DNA of 64,000 bases from Gemmatimonadaceae bacterium (GTDB lineage Bacteria > Gemmatimonadota > Gemmatimonadetes > Gemmatimonadales > Gemmatimonadaceae), in assembly GCA_035606695.1 (NCBI GenBank), contig DATNEW010000028.1, positions 62,001-126,000 of the forward strand, given 5' to 3'. The stretch's first letter is position 1. Every line of letters starts with the position of its first letter. The position numbers and the translations under genes are program-made. The notes beneath the pieces were generated by a model, which saw only the letters and a program-made list of their open reading frames with translations, was not told the DNA's origin and ran no database searches. Of the stretch, positions 1 to 15,030 are shown piece after piece.

Positions 1-2
1 GT

Positions 3-1031
3 GCCGGCAAAGGCGTGCGGCCGATCGAAGCGCAGATCGGTGCTTATATGGAAGCGGTGGAGCTCGCGGTCGCGGAACGATGTGCGTTGCGAGACGCCAT
101 TCAGCCCATCGATCCGCGCGACGTGTTGTCGCGAAGCTCGATGTCGGGACTCATCGATCTCTGTCCGTTGCGCGGAGTGCGGCACAATACAGCCGATTCC
201 GTCGACTGCGTCGACGCGGAAGAACTCCTCTCGGGCGCCACCGTATCTGTTCCCGCGGAGCTCGTGTTCTTTCCGTATTTGCCCTCCCAAGGCCGGCTGT
301 TCGGGAACACGACCAACGGGCTTGCGTCAGGCAGCACGGTCGCCGAAGCGACATTGCACGCGCTGCTCGAAGTGGTCGAGCGTGACGCGGTATCGTTCAT
401 GAACGTACGATCCGGCGTCCGCGGCGTTCGTCTGGACACGCTGCCCTCGACGGTCCGCGCGTTGCTCGGCGCGATCGAGTCGGCGGATTGCGAGATCGCT
501 GTGCGTGAATTGCCCAGCGAGTTCGGGCTGCCGACGTTTCACGCCGCCGTGTTCGACCGCGCGCGCATCGCGAGTCTGACCGTGGCGGCTGGCTACGGCT
601 GCCACGCCGATCCCGAAATCGCGCTGGTGCGCGCCGTGACCGAAGCATGTCAGAGCCGGCTGACCGCGATTCACGGCGGACGCGACGATCTCGATCGATG
701 CGAGGCGCGCGTCGACGCACGTCCCGCGGGCGAACATGACCGGATCGCGGAGGAACAATTCCGGCGCATGGCCGCGTGGCCGGACGTCGCGTCGTTCGAG
801 ACCGTGCGGGCATCCGTCAACGTTGGCGGCAGCGTCGATGCGGCACTCGCGCAAATCCTCGCGCATCTTCAAGCGCGCGGCGTCAACCAGGTGTGCCGCG
901 TCGCCCTTACTCTCGACGCCGACGAGATGAGCGTCGTACGCGTCATCGTGCCGACGCTCGAGTGTTTCAATCGGGACGTCGCGCGTGTCGGTCCACGTCT
1001 GCTGCGAGCGATGCATGCCCGCGTCGCGTAA
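3..1031 (+). CDS. YcaO-domain protein, 5' truncated (RiPP backbone cyclodehydratase/thioamide synthase family)
   Basis: The reading frame is open from the window edge, so the N-terminus is missing; 342 residues are visible. YcaO proteins use ATP to activate a peptide amide for attack by a side chain or by sulfide. The family signatures are present in order: a GKG segment at the very start followed by the EAVE glutamate pair, then ALLEVVERDAV and later TEACQSRL, which resemble the ATP/Mg-binding glutamate helices. The ending matches TfuA-partnered YcaO proteins and I see no PxPxP tail typical of azoline-forming ones. The next gene, a TfuA homologue, overlaps it by 17 bases. In known thioamide RiPPs and in archaeal McrA modification, YcaO+TfuA installs a thioamide. 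Family assignment is firm; the thioamide product is inferred. Confidence 0.9.
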   Translation, partial: AGKGVRPIEAQIGAYMEAVELAVAERCALRDAIQPIDPRDVLSRSSMSGLIDLCPLRGVRHNTADSVDCVDAEELLSGATVSVPAELVFFPYLPSQGRLFGNTTNGLASGSTVAEATLHALLEVVERDAVSFMNVRSGVRGVRLDTLPSTVRALLGAIESADCEIAVRELPSEFGLPTFHAAVFDRARIASLTVAAGYGCHADPEIALVRAVTEACQSRLTAIHGGRDDLDRCEARVDARPAGEHDRIAEEQFRRMAAWPDVASFETVRASVNVGGSVDAALAQILAHLQARGVNQVCRVALTLDADEMSVVRVIVPTLECFNRDVARVGPRLLRAMHARVA

Positions 1032-1737
1032 CGTCGCGTTCGTCGGCCCCACCTATGCGCCGATCGCCGACACAAGTCTCATCGAGCGCGCGGGGTTCGA
1101 GCCATGCGCGCCCGCGCGCCGCGGCGACATGGATGCGCTCGACGGTGAGCCCGGGGTGGCGGTCCTCGTGGACGGACGTTTCAACCATGCGCTCGCCGTC
1201 GGGCATGCGGAGCTGCGACGCGCGGTTGAGCGCGGATGGTCGGTCTGGGGTCTCTCGTCGATGGGCGCCATTCGCGCGTATGAATTGCGCAACCTCGGCG
1301 TTCGCGGCTTCGGTAACGTCTACGCGCACTTTCTCGCGGCGGACGACTTTCAAGACGACGAAGTGGCGCTGATGCACGCGCCCACTGCACCGTATGAAAC
1401 ATTCAGCGAGCCGCTCATACATATCCGGTACTGTCTCGCGGAGATGGTTCGTTTGGGTGAGATCGACTCCGGTGTCGCGCGACGCACGGCGGGGTATCTC
1501 AAGTCGCAATGGTTCGCGGCGCGCACACTCGACGGATTCGTGGCGGCGCTCACCACCTTCGGAGGCGACGTCGCCGCGAACTCGGCACGCGCGCACGTCG
1601 CACGCTTCGATCAATTTCGCGTCAAGACGAAGGACCTGATCGCATTCTTCGCGGAACAGCCGTGGCGCTCGACGTCGTACATCGCGACGCCGGCGCCGGC
1701 GCCGTTCTTGGACAGTCTCACCGAGGACGCTGCATGA
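1015..1737 (+). CDS. TfuA-like protein (partner of YcaO in thioamidation)
   Basis: A 240-residue protein recognisable as TfuA-like by the N-terminal FVGPT segment, DGRFNHALAVGHAELRRA, the block GLSSMGAIRAYELRNLGV, and DDEVALMH. TfuA proteins are thought to help deliver sulfur to the YcaO active site during thioamide formation. The ATG at 1015 is chosen because FVGPT starts a few residues later and upstream in-frame starts add only YcaO-overlapping sequence. It overlaps the YcaO gene by 17 bases and shares an ATGA junction with the next gene, so all are probably translated together. Assignment is by motif resemblance; biochemical role here is inferred from the pair. Confidence 0.88.
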   Translation: MPASRNVAFVGPTYAPIADTSLIERAGFEPCAPARRGDMDALDGEPGVAVLVDGRFNHALAVGHAELRRAVERGWSVWGLSSMGAIRAYELRNLGVRGFGNVYAHFLAADDFQDDEVALMHAPTAPYETFSEPLIHIRYCLAEMVRLGEIDSGVARRTAGYLKSQWFAARTLDGFVAALTTFGGDVAANSARAHVARFDQFRVKTKDLIAFFAEQPWRSTSYIATPAPAPFLDSLTEDAA

Positions 1738-2063
1738 CCTCGCAAACCAACCCGGACGCGCCAACCTCCTGGGAAGCCGGCCTCGCGCGTGGATCGATCG
1801 TGCTCGAGCTGGACGAATCCGTCCTCGACAGCGTGCAAGGCGAGCACACGGTGCTGCTCGACTACGAGCGCGGCGAGTACTACGGCCTCAATGCGGTCGC
1901 GACCGCGGTGTGGCAACAACTTCGGGCGCGGCGGCAATTTCCGGACATCGTCGCGGCTCTCACCGCCGAATACGATGTAGCCGACGAACTCGCGCGGCGC
2001 GACGTCGCGGCGTTTCTTGCCGACCTCCGCGACCGTGGCGTCGTGCGAGCGCACGCGTCATGA
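1734..2063 (+). CDS. PqqD-like RiPP recognition element protein (lasso B1)
   Basis: A 109-residue PqqD-family protein. These small winged-helix proteins bind the leader of a RiPP precursor and present it to the modifying enzymes; in split lasso systems this is protein B1. Visible signature: the strand-strand-helix segment LLDYERGEYYGLNAVATAVW (about residues 41-60), followed by a helical C-terminal half with the repeating acidic/hydrophobic pattern of the family. Its ATG overlaps the TfuA stop (ATGA), and its own stop overlaps the B2 start in the same way, as expected for a stoichiometric complex. It probably serves the leader peptidase and may also serve the YcaO; the latter is inference. 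Confidence 0.9.
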   Translation: MTSQTNPDAPTSWEAGLARGSIVLELDESVLDSVQGEHTVLLDYERGEYYGLNAVATAVWQQLRARRQFPDIVAALTAEYDVADELARRDVAAFLADLRDRGVVRAHAS

Positions 2064-2455
2064 ACGGATTGTTCGTGTTCGTTCGGTCGATGCTCCTGTT
2101 GACGCGAGTGCGCGCGGGGCTGCGGCGCACTGGTTTGCGCCCGATGGTGCAGCGGGCACGCCGCCGTCCGCTCGGCCGCGCGCGACGTGATCGCGACGCC
2201 GTCACATTTGCCCGCTCGCTCGCGACTCAGGTCGAACGAGCCGCCGCGTGCTTTCCGGGACGTGCGCGATGCCTCGAGCAATCGATCGCGCTGCTCATGC
2301 TGCTCCGCGACGCCGGCGTTGCCGCCGAGCTTCGGCTTGGCATCATCGCATTGCCGTTCACGGCGCACGCATGGGTGGAGGTAAACGGTCAGGCGATCAA
2401 CGCCGACAGCGAAACGCTCGCCACGATGCAACCGTTCCCGGAACTGCGCGGGTGA
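2060..2455 (+). CDS. Lasso peptide leader peptidase B2 (transglutaminase-like, McjB C-terminal type)
   Basis: A 131-residue protein of the B2 family, which removes the lasso leader peptide. The cysteine-protease triad can be placed: Cys71 in RCLEQSIALLMLLRDAG, His103 in FTAHAWVEVNGQ, and probably Asp116 in INADSE; the spacing resembles the McjB triad. The N-terminal 45 residues are hydrophobic then strongly basic. The gene is locked between PqqD (ATGA) and the cyclase (GTGA). The AHAWVE and RCL blocks are diagnostic for this family, so function is well supported. The expected substrate is the precursor peptide encoded on the opposite strand near 4500-4740. Confidence 0.93.
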   Translation: MNGLFVFVRSMLLLTRVRAGLRRTGLRPMVQRARRRPLGRARRDRDAVTFARSLATQVERAAACFPGRARCLEQSIALLMLLRDAGVAAELRLGIIALPFTAHAWVEVNGQAINADSETLATMQPFPELRG

Positions 2456-4143
2456 GGGGATTCCTCGCGGCGTTCGCGCCTGGTGGATCGGGAGCGGACG
2501 GACGCGCGCGCGAATGGGTGGACGATCGTCTGCGGCGCGCGCGTGGTCGCGACCAGTGGAACGCCGAGCCGCAATTCGTGACGCACGGCGATTTCGCGGC
2601 GGCGTGGTGGACCGAGCCTGGTGCCCGCGTTTCCGCGAGCCGCGTCGGCAGCATGACGATCATCGGTGACGCCCGACTCGGCGACATTTCCCTCGATCGA
2701 TTCGCCGAGTTGTATCGCGCGAACGGCGAGCGTACGCTCGATGATCTCGACGGCGAATTCGCCCTCGTACTGTACGATGACGCAGCACGTTCGGTCGTCG
2801 CCGTCCGCGACGCGTTCGGGGTCAAGCGATTGTTCTTCCGCCGCGTGGCGGAAGATGGCGCCCTGTTCGCCTCGCATCTCGACCTCCTGAGCGAGTCGAG
2901 CGTCGCCGACGGCGATTTCGCTCATTGCTATTTGACGGGCGAGCTTCCGACCGATCCAACCTGCACCGTGTGGTCGGACGTTCGAGTCGTTCCCTCGGCG
3001 ACGTCGATCTCGCTGCGGCATGGCTCGTGGCGAATGAGACGCTACTGGCAGCCGGGAGTCGCGAAGCCGGAGATTCCGCGCGGCGAGCAGGAGCAGCGCG
3101 CGGCGTTCGACGCGCATCTGCGCGCCGCGGTCACGGCATGCATCGACGCGGACGTGCCGGCGTGGTGCGAAATTTCGGGCGGTCTTGATTCCGGAACGGT
3201 GTTCGCCATCGCGCACGATGCCGGCCGCGTTGCCGGCACGTACAGTTACGTCGATGACATGCCGGGCGCGGATGAGCGGCGATTCATCAGCGCGATCGTC
3301 GGTCAGCGTCCGGTTCGCAACGATCACATCGAGGCGTCGTACCCGTGGGAGGATGACGGCGCACCGCCGCCGCTCACGGACGAGCCGCGCATCTACTACC
3401 CCTATTGGGCGCGCGATCGGTCTGCCGAGCGCATCGTGCGCGACGCGGGAGGCCGATACATCCTGAGTGGCGCGGGTTCGGACTATTATCTCTCCGGCAG
3501 CGCGGTGGTCATTGCCGACGCGCTGGCGAGCTGGCGCGTCGGCAATGCGGTCCGCGAGGCGCATGCGGTCGCCATGGCGCAGCGACGGTCGATGTGGGCG
3601 ACGCTGTGGCGGTACGGGGTGCGTCCGTGGGCGACGTCACTCGTTCGGTTCGGCGCGGACCACGACACGCACTTGCGTCGCAATTCGCGCACGTTCCTCG
3701 AGTACGCATCGACGTTGCACGAGCTGCCGCTGACCTGGCCGGCCGTGGAAAAACGATATCCATTCTTGAATCGTGCGTTGGTCGACTATGCGCTCGCGCT
3801 GCCGAGCCGCATGGTCTTTCACGACGGGCTCACGAAGCAGATGCTTCGTGGCAACGGCGCTTCGGCGCTGCTGCCGGAGATCGTTCGAGCGCGGCGGACG
3901 AAAGGGTGGATCGACGGGCGTGCGAGCTGGGCGTTGTCGCACGAACAGCGGCTCGTCGACCGACTCGTGCGCGATCCGTTGATCGCGCAGGCAGGGTGGA
4001 TTGACGGAGCGGAGCTTCGGGCGACGATTGCGCGGACGCGGACCGGGATCAGCCCGGGTGCGGTCCCCATGATGCGCGCCCTTTCGCTCGAGACCTGGCT
4101 CGCGGTGCGCACGGGACGATGGCCGCAAATCGCCCATGATTGA
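2452..4143 (+). CDS. Asparagine synthetase-like lasso cyclase (protein C)
   Basis: A 563-residue AsnB-fold protein. Lasso cyclases adenylate an Asp/Glu side chain of the core peptide and close a macrolactam with the N-terminal amine. The start is the GTG at 2452, overlapping the B2 stop, giving MRGFLAAF. There is no Cys at position 2, so the N-terminal domain cannot hydrolyse glutamine, as in lasso cyclases and unlike true AsnB. The ATP pyrophosphatase loop is SGGLDSGTVF near residue 242; GAGSDYYLSG and a C-terminal RRTKGWIDGR segment follow. Located directly after B1 and B2, so lasso cyclase is the best reading; a graspetide or house-keeping asparagine synthetase role is unlikely. Confidence 0.92.
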   Translation: MRGFLAAFAPGGSGADGRAREWVDDRLRRARGRDQWNAEPQFVTHGDFAAAWWTEPGARVSASRVGSMTIIGDARLGDISLDRFAELYRANGERTLDDLDGEFALVLYDDAARSVVAVRDAFGVKRLFFRRVAEDGALFASHLDLLSESSVADGDFAHCYLTGELPTDPTCTVWSDVRVVPSATSISLRHGSWRMRRYWQPGVAKPEIPRGEQEQRAAFDAHLRAAVTACIDADVPAWCEISGGLDSGTVFAIAHDAGRVAGTYSYVDDMPGADERRFISAIVGQRPVRNDHIEASYPWEDDGAPPPLTDEPRIYYPYWARDRSAERIVRDAGGRYILSGAGSDYYLSGSAVVIADALASWRVGNAVREAHAVAMAQRRSMWATLWRYGVRPWATSLVRFGADHDTHLRRNSRTFLEYASTLHELPLTWPAVEKRYPFLNRALVDYALALPSRMVFHDGLTKQMLRGNGASALLPEIVRARRTKGWIDGRASWALSHEQRLVDRLVRDPLIAQAGWIDGAELRATIARTRTGISPGAVPMMRALSLETWLAVRTGRWPQIAHD

Positions 4144-4192: not shown

Positions 4193-4498
4193 TCAGCCGC
4201 CGGCGATCGCCGTGACGACGCGAATCTCGTCGCCGTCGGCGAGTGGTGCCGCCAAACCGCCCGCCAACCGTACCGGGCGGGCATTGACATACAATGCCAC
4301 AAATGGATGCGGCTGCCCGCTGGCATCGCAGAGGCGCGGCGCCAAACGCGGAAACCGGTCACGCATTTCCGACAGCGCACCCGCGACCGTATCCGCGCCG
4401 ACGACCACCGACGCAGCGGCCAGCGTCGCGAGCGACGCTGGCAACTGCACGGTGACGGAAGCCGTGGGTGTGTTGGGAGTGTTGGGAGAGTCGCTCAC
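4193..4498 (-). CDS. MoaD/ThiS-family sulfur carrier protein ending in Gly-Gly
   Basis: A 101-residue ubiquitin-like sulfur carrier candidate. The C-terminal 85 residues follow the MoaD/ThiS/CysO pattern: VTVQLPASL strand, GALSEMRDRFP helix, FVALYVNARPVR strand, LADGDEIRVVTAIAGG end. The terminal Gly-Gly is the site that is adenylated by a MoeB/ThiF-type enzyme and converted to a thiocarboxylate. The first 15 residues (Ser/Pro/Thr/Asn) are an extra tail. Start is the GTG at 4498, which overlaps the stop of the precursor peptide gene (GTGA); no ATG is available. No E1 enzyme or sulfurtransferase lies in the window. Its coupling to the precursor suggests it donates sulfur for peptide modification rather than for molybdopterin or thiamine. 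Confidence 0.85.
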   Translation of the reverse strand: MSDSPNTPNTPTASVTVQLPASLATLAAASVVVGADTVAGALSEMRDRFPRLAPRLCDASGQPHPFVALYVNARPVRLAGGLAAPLADGDEIRVVTAIAGG

Positions 4499-4737
4499 GT
4501 CTTCTTGGTGTTCTTGCCCGGCTTGCCATCCGACGGGACCCGGCCGCCGTCGCCGCCGCCACCACCGACACCCGAACCGCCGCCTTCGGTCCAGGCCAAC
4601 ATCCCGTGACATTCCATCGTATCTCCCATGGGTTCGCCCATCGTCTGCTCGACGACGTCGCCAAGATTCGTCACGGTCGGCGCCATATACGGTTTCTTGT
4701 CGCGCGAAGTCGTTTGCCCGTCGTCACGTCGTTCCAT
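4495..4737 (-). CDS. Lasso-type RiPP precursor peptide
   Basis: An 80-residue peptide with a lasso leader: Tyr17-x2-Pro20, Leu25-Gly26 and Thr32 in PYMAPTVTNLGDVVEQTM. The conserved Thr at the penultimate leader position predicts cleavage after Met33, so the core starts GEPMGDTMECHGMLAW. Gly1 of the core and Glu9 fit a nine-residue macrolactam ring. The core also holds Cys10 and His11. A Gly-rich run (about residues 52-65) and a basic tail ending in KKT follow; whether they belong to the product or are trimmed is not visible. The ATG at 4737 has AGGCGG six bases upstream. The gene faces the biosynthetic operon and is translationally coupled to the sulfur carrier. Confidence 0.88.
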   Translation of the reverse strand: MERRDDGQTTSRDKKPYMAPTVTNLGDVVEQTMGEPMGDTMECHGMLAWTEGGGSGVGGGGGDGGRVPSDGKPGKNTKKT

Positions 4738-4793: not shown

Positions 4794-7700
4794 TCATGCG
4801 CTCATTGGCCGCAATGCGTGCTGACGAGCGGCACGCGGTGATTCGGCGCGCGCGGCCAGCGCGGCAAGAACGGCCGGAGGGTCGTAGACCTCTCGCCGAA
4901 TGTCATTCAGATAACGCCTCGCAAACTGGCGCGCCGCCGGGGTCTCGCCTGTCGCATCGAGATGCGCGGCATACACCGCCGCCGGCCAGTCGTGCCAGAA
5001 ATCAGGACGCTCGAAGTACCGACGCATGCCGTCGGCGATCATCGAAACATCGTCCTCGCGGCCGAGCCGCGTGCGCGCGTGCAGGTGGATTGCGAGCATG
5101 CGGAGACCCCACGCTGCCGCGTGATGTTCGATCGCGCGATCGAGCGACGGTGCGCGTCGAAGCGCTTCTTCCGGATCGCCGTGCCGCGCCTCGAGCTCCG
5201 CCTCGACGGTCGGCAGCACGATGTCCTTGAACATTCCGATGCCCCGCGAGCCGAGGGTCTGGATCGGACCGCGCGCTTCGTCGAGCAAGCGTCGCGTGAC
5301 CGCCGGCGCGTCCACGTCGAGGCTCATGCCGATCAACCGTTGCCGCGCGATGATCATTCCGCCAAGCGCGCCGCTGCGGGAATACAACTCAATGGCTTCG
5401 GCTAACGCCGCTCGTGCGTCAGCGAATCGTCCTGTGAGCCGGTACCCGACTCCAGCAAAGTCCAATGCTCCTGCGAGGCGGCTCGTGTCGCCCGCCGCTC
5501 GACATCGCGCCGTCAACTGTTTCGCGAGCTCGAGATATTTGTGCACGTCGCCGAACCGTCGGTGAAACAGCAGCTCGATGTTGGTTCGATCCCACTTCTC
5601 TGATTCCGTTTGTGGCTCGAGCGATCGCGCGATCGCGTAGGCATCGTGCAACAACGACGACGACTTGACCTCCGCCATCTTCGCCGTCTCCTTGGCGGCC
5701 CGGAGCCGATGACCCACCGACGCATGCTCGGCGGACGCGCACCGAAGCATCCGTTGGAGATAGACCGACCAATCGCCGCCGGCATCGACTACCGCGCGTT
5801 CGCGATCCAGCTCGAACGGATTGTGCGCGTCGTGCATCGGATCGACTTCGCGCGCCAGCTGCTCGTACCGATCGACTTCCTCGATGACTTTCGTCGGAAG
5901 ACCCGCGTGAACGAGCAGCTCGATGCGGCGGCGCCGAAGCGCGAGCGATTCGCGCGCATCCTTGACCTGACGAATGGCGCGTTCGCATGCCTCAGCCGCC
6001 GCGTCCGGAAACCCGCTTTGTGCGAGATGCTCGGCGCCGCGCTGCAGCGTGCGAAGTCCATCTTCGCCCAGTCCCGCGTTTTCCCAATGCCGCACCGTCT
6101 CCCACAACAGCGCGAGCGATGGCTGTTCAGCGAGCTCCTGCTGCATGCCTTCCGCGGCATAGCGGTGCAGCAGTCGCGCGACTTGCGGCGACACGCGCGT
6201 CAACGCCGCATCCGACCACATGCCGTGACCGACGAGGATGCCCGCGGAATCCGTCTTGAGAATTCCGGCCGCGTCCAGCTCGATGACCGCGTCGACGAAT
6301 GGCGCGCGAGGCAGTTGCGCGACGTGCTCGACGCGCGCCATCGTAGCATACGGACCGAGGATGGCGGCGACCTGCAGAATGCGCAGCGCCGACGCGCTGA
6401 GTGTGTCGAGTGAGCCGTCGAAGGCGTCCGTGAGCGAGCGCGGCGGCGCACCGGCTGACTGTCCCTGGTGCCGCGCCAACTCGATCAGGAAAAGCGGATT
6501 GCCGGCGCCGCGCGCGGCCACGTCGGCGCGTACGTGCGCGCCGAGCGGACGGCCGGACTGGGCTTCCAGATCAGCGAGTAGCGCGTCCGCGGCCTCAGTG
6601 TCGAGCGGATCGATGGCGACGACCGGAGCAACCGTCGTCAACTCGTCGTCGCCCCGGCCGGGGCGGTGCGACATCACGATCGCGACTGCGTGACTGCCCG
6701 CCCACGGGACCAGGTCTTTCCAGAACGCGACGCTGGCCGCATCCATCCACTGCGCATCGTCCACCGCGATGACCAGCGGCGACTCCCAGGTGACGGCTGC
6801 CAGAAGATCGATCAACGCGCTCATCAAGCGGCGGCGAACGAGCTGCGGACTTGGAAGATTCTCACGCTCGTGCGGCGCCGCTTCACCCGAGCCCGGCTGG
6901 AGGAAGCGGTCGATTTCGGCGAGCGCTTCGGGCGCGCATCCCGCGGCGCCGCGCATCAACCGCGCCTCGTGCGCGAGCGTCGCGACGACCGTGAGCGGCC
7001 GACGGCTGTCGCTGCGTTGACAGCGGAGCCGAATGGGACGCATGCGCGCCGCGCGGGCTTGCGCGATGGTTTCGTCGAGCAGTCGCGTCTTCCCGATGCC
7101 GGCCGGACCGACGAGCAAGAGTGCGCCGCCTTGTCCGAGTCGGGCGACGCGAAGCAGCTCGGCGAGTTGTGCCAGCGGCGCGTCCCTGCCGACGAGCCGT
7201 GGGATCGGCGAGAAGCGAGGCTCCGGCGTGCCTTTGATTCGCTGCACCAGCAACCGTCCTTCGACCTGCAGCTCGGGTCTGTCTTCGGTGGCGCGGAGGA
7301 ACGCTTCAAGTGTCTGCAGCGCCGTTTCGCGATCGCCGACCCGACAGAGACCGTCGGCCAGGCTCAACACCGCGCTCTCGTTCCAACGATCGACGCGCAG
7401 CACTGCCTCGGCGAGTGAGATCACGGTCGGCCATTGGCCATGCTCGCGCGCGACGTTCGCGCGCTCGTTCAACGTTCGCGTCGCTCTGACGCGCAGCAGC
7501 TCGCGCTGTTCGTCGAGCCACCGCTCGAACGCGGCGGAGAAGGTCGGCGCGTAGGACGGAAGCAGCGGTGCGATCTCATCCGGCGGCAGCGCCGCGACGT
7601 GATCGGTATCGATGTCGACGATCGACGCGGGCAACGAGAGCACGTCGCCCGCTTCCGTAAATGGAAGACCGAGGCGGCGCAGCTTGGCCAGGAGCCAGCG

Positions 7701-7961
7701 CAGGCGGCTGCGTTGCGTGGCCGCGTCCGCGTCCGGCCACAGGAGCAGCGCCATTTCGTCGCGCGTCCAACGTCGCCCGCGGTCGAGCGCGAACAACAGC
7801 AGCGCCGCCGTCACGACGACGGAGCGTCCGTTCAGCTCGCGGTCGTTGATGCTGGCCGCGACTCGCCCAAAGAGGGTGATCCGAAGCGACGTAGCACGGC
7901 CGTCGGAAGCGCGAGACGCGGGAATTTGTATGGACACCGAAACAGAAGTTGTGCGCCGCAC
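4794..7961 (-). CDS. BTAD/AAA transcriptional activator with C-terminal repeat region
   Basis: A 1055-residue regulator built like large SARP/MalT-type activators. Residues about 27-110 look like an OmpR-type winged helix (LRITLFGRV start; WTRDEMALLLWPDA), followed by a bacterial transcriptional activation (TPR-like) domain to about 255. An AAA ATPase follows with Walker A GPAGIGKT near residue 283 and Walker B-like PLVIAVDDAQWMD near 395. The C-terminal 550 residues are Ala/Leu/Arg-rich helical repeats, probably TPR. It ends 56 bases before the precursor start on the same strand, so it could be cotranscribed with it or activate it. The signal it senses cannot be read from sequence. Confidence 0.85.
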   Translation of the reverse strand: MRRTTSVSVSIQIPASRASDGRATSLRITLFGRVAASINDRELNGRSVVVTAALLLFALDRGRRWTRDEMALLLWPDADAATQRSRLRWLLAKLRRLGLPFTEAGDVLSLPASIVDIDTDHVAALPPDEIAPLLPSYAPTFSAAFERWLDEQRELLRVRATRTLNERANVAREHGQWPTVISLAEAVLRVDRWNESAVLSLADGLCRVGDRETALQTLEAFLRATEDRPELQVEGRLLVQRIKGTPEPRFSPIPRLVGRDAPLAQLAELLRVARLGQGGALLLVGPAGIGKTRLLDETIAQARAARMRPIRLRCQRSDSRRPLTVVATLAHEARLMRGAAGCAPEALAEIDRFLQPGSGEAAPHERENLPSPQLVRRRLMSALIDLLAAVTWESPLVIAVDDAQWMDAASVAFWKDLVPWAGSHAVAIVMSHRPGRGDDELTTVAPVVAIDPLDTEAADALLADLEAQSGRPLGAHVRADVAARGAGNPLFLIELARHQGQSAGAPPRSLTDAFDGSLDTLSASALRILQVAAILGPYATMARVEHVAQLPRAPFVDAVIELDAAGILKTDSAGILVGHGMWSDAALTRVSPQVARLLHRYAAEGMQQELAEQPSLALLWETVRHWENAGLGEDGLRTLQRGAEHLAQSGFPDAAAEACERAIRQVKDARESLALRRRRIELLVHAGLPTKVIEEVDRYEQLAREVDPMHDAHNPFELDRERAVVDAGGDWSVYLQRMLRCASAEHASVGHRLRAAKETAKMAEVKSSSLLHDAYAIARSLEPQTESEKWDRTNIELLFHRRFGDVHKYLELAKQLTARCRAAGDTSRLAGALDFAGVGYRLTGRFADARAALAEAIELYSRSGALGGMIIARQRLIGMSLDVDAPAVTRRLLDEARGPIQTLGSRGIGMFKDIVLPTVEAELEARHGDPEEALRRAPSLDRAIEHHAAAWGLRMLAIHLHARTRLGREDDVSMIADGMRRYFERPDFWHDWPAAVYAAHLDATGETPAARQFARRYLNDIRREVYDPPAVLAALAARAESPRAARQHALRPMSA

Positions 7962-8906: not shown

Positions 8907-11015
8907 ATGAGAGAATACAAGGGATCGGAGATCCGCAACATCGCGGTGGTAGGACACGGGGCGAGCGGCAAGACCAGTCTGGTCGATGCGCTCGCCTTTG
9001 TGTCAGGCAGCGCGAAGCGGCACGGATCGGTGAGGGACGGCACCGCCCTGACCGATCACGCCGCCGAAGAAATCGAGCGCGGATTCTCGATCAACCTCGG
9101 CTGCGCCTATGCCGAGTGGCAGGACACCAAGATCAATCTCATCGACACCCCGGGGTATCTCGACTTCAACGGCGACGCGATCGCCGGTCTGGCCGCGGCC
9201 GACGGCGCGCTCGTCGTCGTGCCGGCGACGTCCGGCGTCGAAGTCGGTACGGAGCGCATGTTCCGCGAGGCGGTGAGCCGCCGCGATCCGGTGCTGTTCG
9301 TGGTGTCGATGATGGACAAGGAGCACGCCGACTTCGATCGCATCTACCAGCAGATCAAGACGCGGCTGACGAACAAGGTCATCCCCGTCGAGATCCCGAT
9401 CGGCGAAGGCCCCGACTTCCATGGCGTCATCAATCTCTTCACCAAGCGCGCGCTGCAGTTCAAGCGCGGCGTGAAGACGGGCGAGTATGAGGAAACTGAT
9501 ATACCAGAAGAAGCACAAGCGCAGTTCGACCGCTACTACGCGGAGTTGATCGAGTCGATCTCGGCGACGGACGACACGCTGCTCGAGCGCTATCTCGAGG
9601 GCGGCGACATCTCGCGCGACGACGCGATCGCCGGCATGAAGGAAGCGATGAAGCGCATGGAGCTCTTCCCGCTCTTCTGCGTCTCGAGCGAGCACAATTA
9701 CGGCACGCAGGCCGTGCTCTCGACGATCGTCGAGCTCATGCCGAACGCCTTCGAGATGGAAGAGGTGCACGCGTTCACGGGCGCCGAGGGCGACGCGACG
9801 GTCGACATTCACGCCGAGGACGACAAGCACTGCATCGCGCACGTGTTCAAGACGATGTCCGAGCCGCACGTCGGCGACGTCACCTTCTTCCGCCTGTATT
9901 CCGGCACCATCACCAACGGCGACGAGTTGTACAACGCCACGCGCGCCGGGGCGGAGAAGTTGAATCACCTCTCCGTGGCCCAGGGCAAGGAGCGCACGGA
10001 GGTACCGCGGCTGCACGCGGGCGATCTGGGCTGCGTGGCCAAGCTGCGCAACACCCATACGAACGACACCCTCTCGACGAAGCAGCATCCCGTGCGCATG
10101 CCGCTCATCACCTTCCCCGAGCCGACGATCAACATGGCGGTGCACGCCGCCAACCGCGCCGACGAGGAGAAGCTGCAATCCGGATTGCACCGGCTGCACG
10201 ACGAGGACCCCACGTTCGAGGTACACTACAACGCCGAGACGCACGAGACGATCGTCTCCGGCCTCGGCGAGCGGCACCTCGAAGTGGCGATGAGTAAACT
10301 CAAACGAAAGTTCGCCGTGACGGCCGAGCTCTCGAAGCCCAGGATCGCGTATCGCGAGACGATCAAGGCGAAAGCCGAGGGCCAGGGCAGGCACAAGAAA
10401 CAATCGGGCGGCCGCGGGCAGTTTGGCGACTGCTGGGTGCGATTCGCGCCGCTGCCGCGCGGGACTGGCTACCGCTTCGTCGATTCAATCGTCGGCGGCT
10501 CGATTCCCCGGCAGTTCATCCCCGCCGTCGACAAGGGAATTCAGGAAGCGTCGGTGCGCGGCATTCTCGCCGGCTATCCGCTCGTCGATTTCCAGGTCGA
10601 GGTGTACGACGGCTCGTATCACACCGTCGACTCGAACGAAATGTCCTTCAAGATGGCCGGCATTCTCGCGTTCAAGGGCGTTGCCGCGAGATGCAAGCCG
10701 GTGCTCCTCGAGCCACTCGATGAAATCGAAGTCACGACGCCCGACGACTACATGGGCGACGTGCTCGGCGATCTCTCATCGCGCCGCGGACACATTCTTG
10801 GCTCGGAGCCGAGTGATGCGGGCACGGTCATTCGCGCGATCGTGCCGCAGGCCGAGTTGCATGACTACGCCAGCTCCGTGTCGTCGATGACGCAGGGGCG
10901 GGCGAGGTTCCACCGCGCGTTCAAGGGATATGAGGAAGCACCGCACGAGGTGGCGCAGAAGGTGATCGAAGACCACGCCAAGGAGAAGGACGAGGAGCTG
11001 GTCGCGGCGCACTAA
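8907..11015 (+). CDS. fusA: Elongation factor G-like translational GTPase
   Basis: A 702-residue protein with the EF-G layout: GTP-binding domain, OB domain, then domains III-V. G1 is GHGASGKT (residues 16-23), switch I is around ERGFSIN, and G3 is DTPGY. The normal G4 motif NKxD is replaced by SMMD near residue 134. Domain IV has the KKQSGGRGQFGD segment typical of EF-G and the C-terminus has HILGSEP and YASSVSSMTQGRA. Length matches EF-G. It resembles the EF-G-like/FusA2 group more than canonical EF-G, so it could be a paralogue rather than the main translocase. It is monocistronic or followed by the secreted protein 15 bases downstream. Confidence 0.9.
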   Translation: MREYKGSEIRNIAVVGHGASGKTSLVDALAFVSGSAKRHGSVRDGTALTDHAAEEIERGFSINLGCAYAEWQDTKINLIDTPGYLDFNGDAIAGLAAADGALVVVPATSGVEVGTERMFREAVSRRDPVLFVVSMMDKEHADFDRIYQQIKTRLTNKVIPVEIPIGEGPDFHGVINLFTKRALQFKRGVKTGEYEETDIPEEAQAQFDRYYAELIESISATDDTLLERYLEGGDISRDDAIAGMKEAMKRMELFPLFCVSSEHNYGTQAVLSTIVELMPNAFEMEEVHAFTGAEGDATVDIHAEDDKHCIAHVFKTMSEPHVGDVTFFRLYSGTITNGDELYNATRAGAEKLNHLSVAQGKERTEVPRLHAGDLGCVAKLRNTHTNDTLSTKQHPVRMPLITFPEPTINMAVHAANRADEEKLQSGLHRLHDEDPTFEVHYNAETHETIVSGLGERHLEVAMSKLKRKFAVTAELSKPRIAYRETIKAKAEGQGRHKKQSGGRGQFGDCWVRFAPLPRGTGYRFVDSIVGGSIPRQFIPAVDKGIQEASVRGILAGYPLVDFQVEVYDGSYHTVDSNEMSFKMAGILAFKGVAARCKPVLLEPLDEIEVTTPDDYMGDVLGDLSSRRGHILGSEPSDAGTVIRAIVPQAELHDYASSVSSMTQGRARFHRAFKGYEEAPHEVAQKVIEDHAKEKDEELVAAH

Positions 11016-11961: not shown

Positions 11962-14900
11962 TCATGCTGACGCGTCAACGTGCAGAAGCATGCTTGCGAG
12001 GAGCTGTGGGTCGCGACAAACCACCAAGCCCCACACGCCCTCGCGCCCCCAGCGATTGACGGCCGAGACCCAACGGCGAGCGGCTTGGTGCTTCGCTCGA
12101 TCTTGCTCGGTTTCCTCCCCCTTGATCTCGACCAGAACGTGTGCGCCGTTCGTGAGTCGAACCACGAAATCGGGATAGTACGCGTGCGCTACCCCTAGGT
12201 ACTCGTACGGGATGGAAAGTTCCAGGTGATCGTTGCGCGCATACGCCGCGACGACGTTCGATTGCTCCAGGCGGAAGACCGCAGCCTGTTCCCAGGTGTC
12301 GGTGTCGGCTACGACCTGATCGATCTGGCTTTTCGTCGTCGCGATGCAGGGTCGAATCGTCTTGAAGCTCACGCGACTCGTGTCACCGATACGCTGCGTG
12401 CGGTTGAGCAGTGGAAGCAGTGGGAGCTCGCCCGCCGCATCGTCCGGCTCGATGGCCGCGACAAGCCGTTCGACCGTGCGTTGCGTGTAGGTCTGAAGTC
12501 CGAGCTCACGCATATCGCAACCGCGTGTCGACACGCGTGTGCCGACGTATTCGGAGACGAGGCGGAATACTTGCGGAAAGAGCTGATGCCTCGAAACAAG
12601 TGAGAGTTTCGCCGCCTTTCCCTCCGTGAGTCGGCGAACGACCTCACGCGCAATCTCGAACTCGATAGTCTGCAGATGCGTGGATTCGTAGAATGCCTGC
12701 CGGTCCTGCAACTGGAGAGCGAAGCCCCCCGCGACATCCGGTCCTCCGACCTGATGACTCACCTGCGGCTTGACGAATACCGCGGTCGGATTCCGATCCG
12801 GCTCGAGAACGATCGGTTCGATCGAGGAAATGTCCGCGCGAATGAGATTGTGGCGCAACGCGACAACGTAGCCCTCGACAACCGGGAACCGAATCATGAA
12901 CTCCGAGCGCTCGGGCAATGAGCGCACGTGATTTTTCGGGCTGTCGTCGGGAGTCGGCGCGCCGACTTCGCGACCCTTGAACGGGATGACAGAGAACGGA
13001 ATGCCATACACGTCCACGTATTCTTCGGTCAGCAGCCCCGTGCTCGGGTCGGGAGTGTAGTCCATCCGTCGCAAACCGCGGCCGACCACCTGCTCGCACA
13101 GCAGTTGGCTGCCGAACGCGCGCAAACCAAGAATATGCGTCACGTTGTTCGCGTCCCAACCTTCATTCAGCATCTGCACGCTGACCACGCACCGAATATG
13201 TTCGCCCGGCGTCCCGGGTTTCCCGACGGAGGCGACGATTTGGCGAATGCGCTCCGCCGCGTCTTTCTTACCACCGTTCGGTCCGGTTTCGGCTTGCTCG
13301 AGCTCCCGCGAATCGATACGCAGGGTGTGCTTCCTTTGCGCCGAGTTGCTGAAATACTCCGGAAAAAGAGAGCCTTGGCCGAATATCGTCTTCGTCGTGG
13401 ACTTCGGTGCTCGCCTGCTCGCGCTCTCTTCGTCCTCGTCCTCAACATCGCTCGACTCGGCGGTCACCGTTCGCTCGCCAGAGATCCGTTCGTAAAACTC
13501 CTCGGCGATATCGACGTTGTCGCAAACGACAATGAGAACGGGCGGGATGAATTCCTGGCCGGGCTTCGCCATCGCCATTCGCTCGAAGCGCTCAATCCAT
13601 TGACTCGCGAGCGTCGCGAGCGCGTCCTCGGCATTCCGCCACACGATCTCGGGTTTCGGCTTACCGCCAGGCAGCTTCTCGCCGGGGGCCAAACGCTCCG
13701 TGATGTGCCGCCACAACGCAAAATACTTGGGCTCCGGCCGACCGGTCGTGTCACTGACGGGTATTCGCGGAATCTTCACGATTCCACTTTCGATCGCATC
13801 GACCAATCCGAAGTCACTCACCAGCCAAGGGAACGGTGCTCCTTCCGTGTACCCGCTCCCATGCAGATAGAAGGGCGTCGCCGAGAGATCGATGCAGCAA
13901 TGGATACCGACGGACGCGTTGATGCGATCGAGACCCGCAATCCAAACCGTCGCCTCCTCGCGCTCCGCTCGCTCCTCGCGCGAGAATTCAGCGTCGGTCA
14001 CGCGCGCCGGCCGATAGGCGTGATGTGCCTCATCGTTGAACACGAGAATTGGACCGCGGCGCGCGAGCTCTCCGAGCACGCGCTTCGCAAAGGCATCATT
14101 GGACTCGATGCCTTTGTTCACAACCGTATAGGTCTTGCCGCCGTCGGCGTGCGGAGACTCGAGCGCGAACGCGTGCCAGTTCGTGACGAGCAGGGCGCCC
14201 TTGCGCAGCTCCGGCCAGAGGGGCGATGGAACGAGATCGAACATCTCGTAGTAGTTGCCTGGCTCATCAGGCCTGAGCACCTGAAGGCGTTCCTTGATCG
14301 TGATATTGGGACACACGATCAACGCCGCGCTGGGAAATCGATCGTTGCCAGGCACGCGGCCGCGATTGCAGAATGACCATGCGACGAGCATCGCCATGAC
14401 TACGGTTTTCCCGCTCCCCGTCGCCATCTTACACCCGTAACGGAACAACGGGGGGAGTTCAGCCTCGTTCGGCGCGTCGACCATCGAGGCGTGTCGTCCG
14501 ACGCGTTCCTCGAGCGCAAATGAGACACGTTCATCCCGGCGCAGACGCTCGTAGTCTTCCAGCGACAGCTTGGGTTTGAACCGCGGCGATCGATGTGTGC
14601 CGAGAATCTCGTTCAGGTAGATGATCGTCTCGACTGCCTCGCGCTGGCAGAAAAACAGGGGTCGCGATCGCTCCGCTCGAGTCCAGTGACGGAGCAACTG
14701 CTTTGTCACCGGCGTCGCGCCTTCCCATTCCGACTCACGCCACCGTCGAACGTCCTCGCGAAGAGCGTTTACGAGCTCGAGGGGATCGCTCTCCTCCTGC
14801 GCGATGAGCGAGAGTTGGCCTCCGCTCGTGCGTTCTGATCGAAACCAATAACTCGCCTCTCGGCGGCCTTCAGTTCGAGTCGCGGCTCCCATGTTCGTGT

Positions 14901-15030
14901 CGTAGAGCCAATGCCAGGCGGGTTCCTGATATGGGCTGCACAGAATCGGTGACGCTACCGGCTGAATCGGCAGCGGCTCTTGCCCGCGTGCCTCGGCTTC
15001 GCTCGATGTCGCGCGCTTCCTCGGTGCCAT
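11962..15030 (-). CDS. res: Type III restriction endonuclease, Res (helicase-nuclease) subunit
   Basis: A 1022-residue SF2 helicase fused to a nuclease. Walker A is MATGSGKTVVMAM near residue 207, the Walker B box is NDEAHHAYRP near 329, and the later helicase motif QVVGRGLRRMDY is present. The C-terminal segment includes DFVVRLTNGAHVLVEIKGEE, the D...ExK pattern of a PD-(D/E)XK nuclease. Res cleaves DNA after ATP-driven communication between two sites bound by Mod. It starts 11 bases after the stop of mod on the same strand. Length is typical of the family. No frameshift is seen, so the system is likely functional. Confidence 0.92.
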   Translation of the reverse strand: MAPRKRATSSEAEARGQEPLPIQPVASPILCSPYQEPAWHWLYDTNMGAATRTEGRREASYWFRSERTSGGQLSLIAQEESDPLELVNALREDVRRWRESEWEGATPVTKQLLRHWTRAERSRPLFFCQREAVETIIYLNEILGTHRSPRFKPKLSLEDYERLRRDERVSFALEERVGRHASMVDAPNEAELPPLFRYGCKMATGSGKTVVMAMLVAWSFCNRGRVPGNDRFPSAALIVCPNITIKERLQVLRPDEPGNYYEMFDLVPSPLWPELRKGALLVTNWHAFALESPHADGGKTYTVVNKGIESNDAFAKRVLGELARRGPILVFNDEAHHAYRPARVTDAEFSREERAEREEATVWIAGLDRINASVGIHCCIDLSATPFYLHGSGYTEGAPFPWLVSDFGLVDAIESGIVKIPRIPVSDTTGRPEPKYFALWRHITERLAPGEKLPGGKPKPEIVWRNAEDALATLASQWIERFERMAMAKPGQEFIPPVLIVVCDNVDIAEEFYERISGERTVTAESSDVEDEDEESASRRAPKSTTKTIFGQGSLFPEYFSNSAQRKHTLRIDSRELEQAETGPNGGKKDAAERIRQIVASVGKPGTPGEHIRCVVSVQMLNEGWDANNVTHILGLRAFGSQLLCEQVVGRGLRRMDYTPDPSTGLLTEEYVDVYGIPFSVIPFKGREVGAPTPDDSPKNHVRSLPERSEFMIRFPVVEGYVVALRHNLIRADISSIEPIVLEPDRNPTAVFVKPQVSHQVGGPDVAGGFALQLQDRQAFYESTHLQTIEFEIAREVVRRLTEGKAAKLSLVSRHQLFPQVFRLVSEYVGTRVSTRGCDMRELGLQTYTQRTVERLVAAIEPDDAAGELPLLPLLNRTQRIGDTSRVSFKTIRPCIATTKSQIDQVVADTDTWEQAAVFRLEQSNVVAAYARNDHLELSIPYEYLGVAHAYYPDFVVRLTNGAHVLVEIKGEETEQDRAKHQAARRWVSAVNRWGREGVWGLVVCRDPQLLASMLLHVDASA

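Follow-up and report, generated by a model that had tools for sequence, protein, structure and literature searches.

According to the passages cited here, McrA thioamidation in methanogens involves a YcaO and TfuA pair (eLife 2017, PMC5589413; Liu et al. 2021, as cited by others), and such a pair is also present in the window, the whole 64,000-nt stretch of Gemmatimonadaceae DNA analysed. In several genomes moaD, moeB and thiF are reported to lie near the pair (PMC5589413). The methanogen substrate is a large enzyme subunit, whereas that of the window is a predicted lasso precursor. Archaeal TfuA is described, in passages citing Liu et al. 2021, as hydrolysing thiocarboxylated ThiS to sulfide for its YcaO (PMC8153245, PMC13063428, PMC8939145). 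Use of thiocarboxylated carriers by bacterial TfuA is termed an open question in the relevant passage of PMC8153245; the locus provides a bacterial case for asking whether a RiPP TfuA takes sulfur from such carriers as archaeal TfuA does.

The Pseudomonas 'YcaO cluster' (PMC8719888) comprises a precursor, YcaO, TfuA, an unknown protein, a ubiquitin-like protein, an E1/ThiF-like protein, an MFS protein and a methyltransferase. The gene order of loci L025, L028 and L030 of the present collection agrees with it. Like the window, it holds YcaO, TfuA and a ubiquitin-like carrier together; unlike the window, it includes an E1 and lacks lasso genes. A 256-aa protein, conserved among the Pseudomonas clusters and without a Pfam match, is encoded between TfuA and carrier (L028, 10644-11411). 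In actinobacterial TfuA RiPP clusters a ThiS-like gene has already been reported (RiPPER Network 18, PMC6511847; Malit 2021 Fig. 5, PMC8120280), and the cited parts of these papers describe the clusters without mention of a lasso B1-B2-C set. The TfuA cluster of Nonomuraea solani, as presented in the cited part of PMC8120280, has an albusnodin-like lasso precursor with TfuA, as in the window; the precursor family differs from that of the window, and a carrier is not mentioned there. The phrase 'thioamidated lasso' occurred in no paper in a full-text literature search. Carrier, TfuA and YcaO are already known together; their union with a complete lasso set is new as far as these searches reach. 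The cluster is a lead to a testable thioamidated lasso peptide.

Gene content of the cluster

Judged by its sequence, the locus encodes a lasso-peptide pathway: precursor, B1, B2 and cyclase are all present, joined by YcaO and TfuA, the enzyme pair behind backbone thioamides, in which sulfur replaces an oxygen of the peptide backbone. YcaO, TfuA, B1, B2 and the cyclase lie on the plus strand; precursor and carrier converge on them from the minus strand. The in-house gene caller is unreliable at high GC and served as a guide only.

YcaO (1-1031, plus strand) is represented by its C-terminal 342 aa (Pfam YcaO, 205.8 bits). The gene starts upstream of the window, the full ORF being 423 aa (L006, 11760-13031), and is the sole YcaO of the genome. 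Against the nearest NCBIfam model, TIGR03266 (McrA-glycine thioamidation YcaO), it scores 190 bits and does not reach the cut-off of 365. TfuA, the YcaO thioamidation partner (1015-1737, plus strand), is of the short form, 240 aa (Pfam TfuA, 106 bits; solved homologue 6xp8, 5e-14). The two genes are adjacent, share 17 nt and exceed both Pfam cut-offs; their scores are below the NCBIfam cut-offs of characterised archaeal families. Ser82 and Lys204 of TfuA are invariant across 88 TfuA sequences, of which the GTDB share is the best 80 of 475 relatives, and are kept in the window protein; their retention fits a Ser-Lys hydrolase. The published archaeal enzyme reportedly has a Ser-Lys pair, to which these two residues may correspond.

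B1, a PqqD-type peptide recognition element (1734-2063, plus strand; Pfam PqqD, 75.2 bits, cut-off 23.4), matches the lasso PqqD models of NCBIfam, in each case under the cut-off. B2, a leader peptidase of transglutaminase fold (2060-2455, plus strand), scores 78 bits against NF033537 (cut-off 33). Cyclase C (2452-4143, plus strand) is asparagine-synthetase-like, with a GTG start and an SGGLDS motif, and exceeds the Pfam Asn_synthase cut-off (90.9 bits). It reaches 343.6 bits against a model built from the lasso cyclases of the phylum and 123.7 bits, below the cut-off of 525, against the NCBIfam lasso cyclase NF033535 (an exception model).

The lasso precursor (4495-4737, minus strand), 80 aa, has the leader KPYMAPTVTNLGDVVEQTM, the predicted core GEPMGDTMECHGMLAWTE... 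and a Gly-rich C-terminus. The leader is of the YxxP...G...T type, as are those of other lasso precursors in the phylum, and barely reaches NF033521 lasso_leader_L3 (19.0 bits, cut-off 19). The predicted core begins GEPMGDTME, a start that would permit a Gly1-Glu9 ring. Beyond the predicted ring the precursor has a long Gly- and Lys-rich tail (window, 4495-4610) of unusual Gly content. Lasso precursors of the phylum at L163 and L171 end in DGG...K-rich stretches. Upstream of the precursor lies an AAA_16/TPR regulator-like gene (4794-7961, minus strand; Pfam AAA_16, 76 bits, weak BTAD), of uncertain cluster membership. Past the cluster are genes for an elongation factor G paralogue (window, 8907-11015) and for a large, type III restriction-like protein with a ResIII domain (window, 11962-15030).

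Junction of precursor and carrier

The GTGA overlap noted at 4490-4500 is present. In direct reading of the minus strand, 5'-AAGACGTGAGCGAC-3', the precursor stop TGA occupies 4497-4495 and GTG, the start of the carrier, 4498-4496, giving a 4-nt overlap at 4495-4498. GTG 4498 is the likely carrier start, because the sole other in-frame start before the first CysO-aligning residue, ATG 4612, would add 38 residues that are an out-of-frame reading of the precursor gene.

The overlap is ordinary, compact operon packing and the default junction of the cluster, because 4-nt NTGA overlaps occur at three further junctions (TfuA/B1, ATGA, 1734-1737; B1/B2, ATGA, 2060-2063; B2/C, GTGA, 2452-2455) and in-frame NTGA overlaps join 33 of 81 adjacent lasso-gene pairs at 60 lasso loci of the phylum outside this genome. 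These like junctions and this base rate do not support the original prediction in its view of the overlap as the strongest argument for a role of the carrier on the peptide. By itself the overlap is of little importance.

The prediction had further supposed that the overlap sets precursor and carrier stoichiometry. As a functional device it would couple translation and fix a 1:1 ratio, the two proteins being partners; the overlap is real, and termination-reinitiation is able to couple translation. Such coupling is nonetheless very unlikely, being at odds with the frequency of the same junction in the cluster and in the lasso operons of the phylum and with its absence elsewhere: conservation of the overlap had been proposed as a check, and at the 18 other carrier-holding TfuA loci examined no precursor-carrier overlap was found, TfuA or unrelated genes overlapping instead. 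The gene 5' of the carrier is TfuA itself, with a 4-nt overlap, in archaeal L044 and L052, whereas the carrier gene of the window is convergent to TfuA. In that upstream place Pseudomonas and Rouxiella have a gene for a ~256-aa protein without assigned family and Burkholderia a transporter-like gene; the remaining loci have no close gene there. The published partner of the carrier, moreover, is TfuA and not the precursor, and RNA structure at the junction is not unusual (z +1.84). Promoter and terminator scans gave no signal at the junction. Stoichiometric coupling was rejected on the base rate and the non-conservation, which make it unlikely only.

Identity and distribution of the carrier

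The carrier (4193-4498, minus strand) is a CysO/ThiS-type protein of 101 aa ending in IAGG (Pfam ThiS, 40.3 bits). Among solved structures its sequence is closest to the CysO proteins of M. tuberculosis (3dwg, 2e-13) and Amycolatopsis. The AlphaFold model (pLDDT 91.6) has a beta-grasp fold with C-terminal GG, of the CysO/SAMP1 type as modelled; CysO ranks first and SAMP1 second by structure in the PDB. The SAMP1 equivalog of NCBIfam, NF041918, is not reached (39.5, cut-off 60). A plasmid search with the carrier as query gave no match.

The best matches in sequence and fold, M. tuberculosis CysO and the BexX/CysO carrier of Amycolatopsis, have the same GG tail and feed cysteine or 2-thiosugar synthesis. 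As M. tuberculosis CysO leads in both sequence and structure, the window carrier might likewise deliver sulfur for CysO-dependent synthesis of cysteine, or for some other thiol product, instead of for the peptide. This role is quite improbable: neither CysM nor a JAB protease was found among the cluster proteins scanned, and carriers of the same type adjoin TfuA in unrelated phyla.

A general molybdopterin or thiamine carrier, standing beside the cluster by chance, is highly improbable. The protein does belong to the broad ThiS/MoaD Pfam family, and its E1 is presumably shared, but it misses the cut-offs of archaeal MoaD TIGR01687 (28.5, cut-off 49.5) and ThiS TIGR01683 (13.3, cut-off 37.45). 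Neither synthesis requires it, because the genome has a separate MoaA-MoaE-MoaD operon (contig 35) and no ThiG above cut-off; the general role was rejected on these grounds. The MoaD of that operon is the one further ThiS-family gene of the genome. A second ThiS gene, raised originally as an objection, thus exists, but as MoaD in its own operon and not in the role of the carrier.

Carrier distribution was compared between 87 TfuA loci, of which GTDB genomes supplied 80, the phylum sample 6 and the window 1, and 60 lasso loci of the phylum, all without YcaO and TfuA. The GTDB profile search used a wider TfuA alignment, a two-sequence alignment having given no matches. ThiS/CysO-type carriers are present at 19 of the 87 TfuA loci, 80 of which are the best 80 of 475 relatives, and at 0 of the 60 TfuA-free lasso loci (Fisher p 2e-5), locus lengths being unequal and some short TfuA contigs lowering the count on the TfuA side. 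Within the phylum the counts are 5/7 and 0/60 (p 2e-6). A local carrier is not obligatory for TfuA loci, because 68 of the 87 (with the same best 80 of 475) are without one in the stretch examined. Lasso clusters with a precursor and no carrier had been named as weighing against a peptide role; 60 such clusters exist, and they do not contradict it because YcaO and TfuA are missing there too. Together with the published archaeal TfuA-ThiS chemistry, the separate MoaD and the lack of a ThiG above cut-off, this distribution makes it very probable that the ThiS-like protein acts in the peptide pathway, as the original prediction held.

The nearest phylum relative of the window TfuA is at L021 (TfuA 54%, YcaO 47-48%, nearest carrier 41%). 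This locus has LanM and two YcaO genes instead of lasso genes, and retains the carrier. By these sequence comparisons the carrier tracks YcaO-TfuA and not peptide class, because the nearest TfuA and a carrier are paired there with LanM. At L021 (3600-8478) TfuA, the two YcaO genes and the carrier lie beside LanM, together with a pair of short, Cys-rich and nearly identical ORFs (...FCCDGTKVCCC...). The short ORFs are apparent precursors, and a thioamidated lanthipeptide cluster is possible. Nif11-type leader precursors are encoded at L016 (13193-13549) and L019 (10978-11253), TfuA loci also with carrier and E1.

Proposed route of sulfur

The favoured reading, held to be likely, is that the lasso-peptide cluster carries its own module for backbone thioamidation, with the CysO-type carrier as sulfur source. 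The carrier probably feeds sulfur to the thioamidation step. An E1 would adenylate its C-terminal GlyGly and load sulfur as thiocarboxylate. TfuA would hydrolyse the thiocarboxylate and hand sulfide to YcaO. YcaO with ATP would activate an amide of the lasso precursor, at a presumed position, and insert sulfur; co-location is what points to its action on this precursor. B1 and B2 would take off the leader, and C would close the ring, predicted as Gly1-Glu9. That the product is a thioamidated lasso peptide, drawing sulfur from a dedicated protein carrier and combining two RiPP chemistries, is put at about an even chance.

The same genes might instead be divided between two pathways, YcaO-TfuA and the carrier acting on a second, unseen peptide with the lasso genes as an independent neighbour. 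No other TfuA locus examined (80 being the best 80 of 475) has a full lasso set, as this division would have it. TfuA, B1, B2 and C, however, form one same-strand run of overlapping genes, and the sole precursor-like gene seen overlaps the carrier, so that a second peptide is unlikely. A TfuA search of 179 family genomes and of class and phylum samples found no second lasso-TfuA cluster.

Against the favoured single-pathway reading stands the cluster's lack of its own E1, whereas most bacterial relatives have one. A MoeB/ThiF-like E1 had been looked for upstream of YcaO; none is present within ~12 kb, and none in the cluster. The genome has a single full-length E1, a MoeB-rhodanese encoded on contig 50, apart from the cluster; it is most likely the enzyme that would load the carrier. 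An E1 is at the same locus in 10 of 12 bacterial carrier loci (from TfuA loci including the best 80 of 475 relatives), the exceptions being the window and L021. The carrier adjoins E1 in Burkholderia, Pseudomonas and Rouxiella, an arrangement on record for Pseudomonas (PMC8719888). L018 (1-906) groups MoeB with a JAB protease and with a carrier whose sequence ends in GGAR, ~8 kb from TfuA; by analogy, the two residues past GG and the JAB protease suggest carrier processing as in QbsE-type systems.
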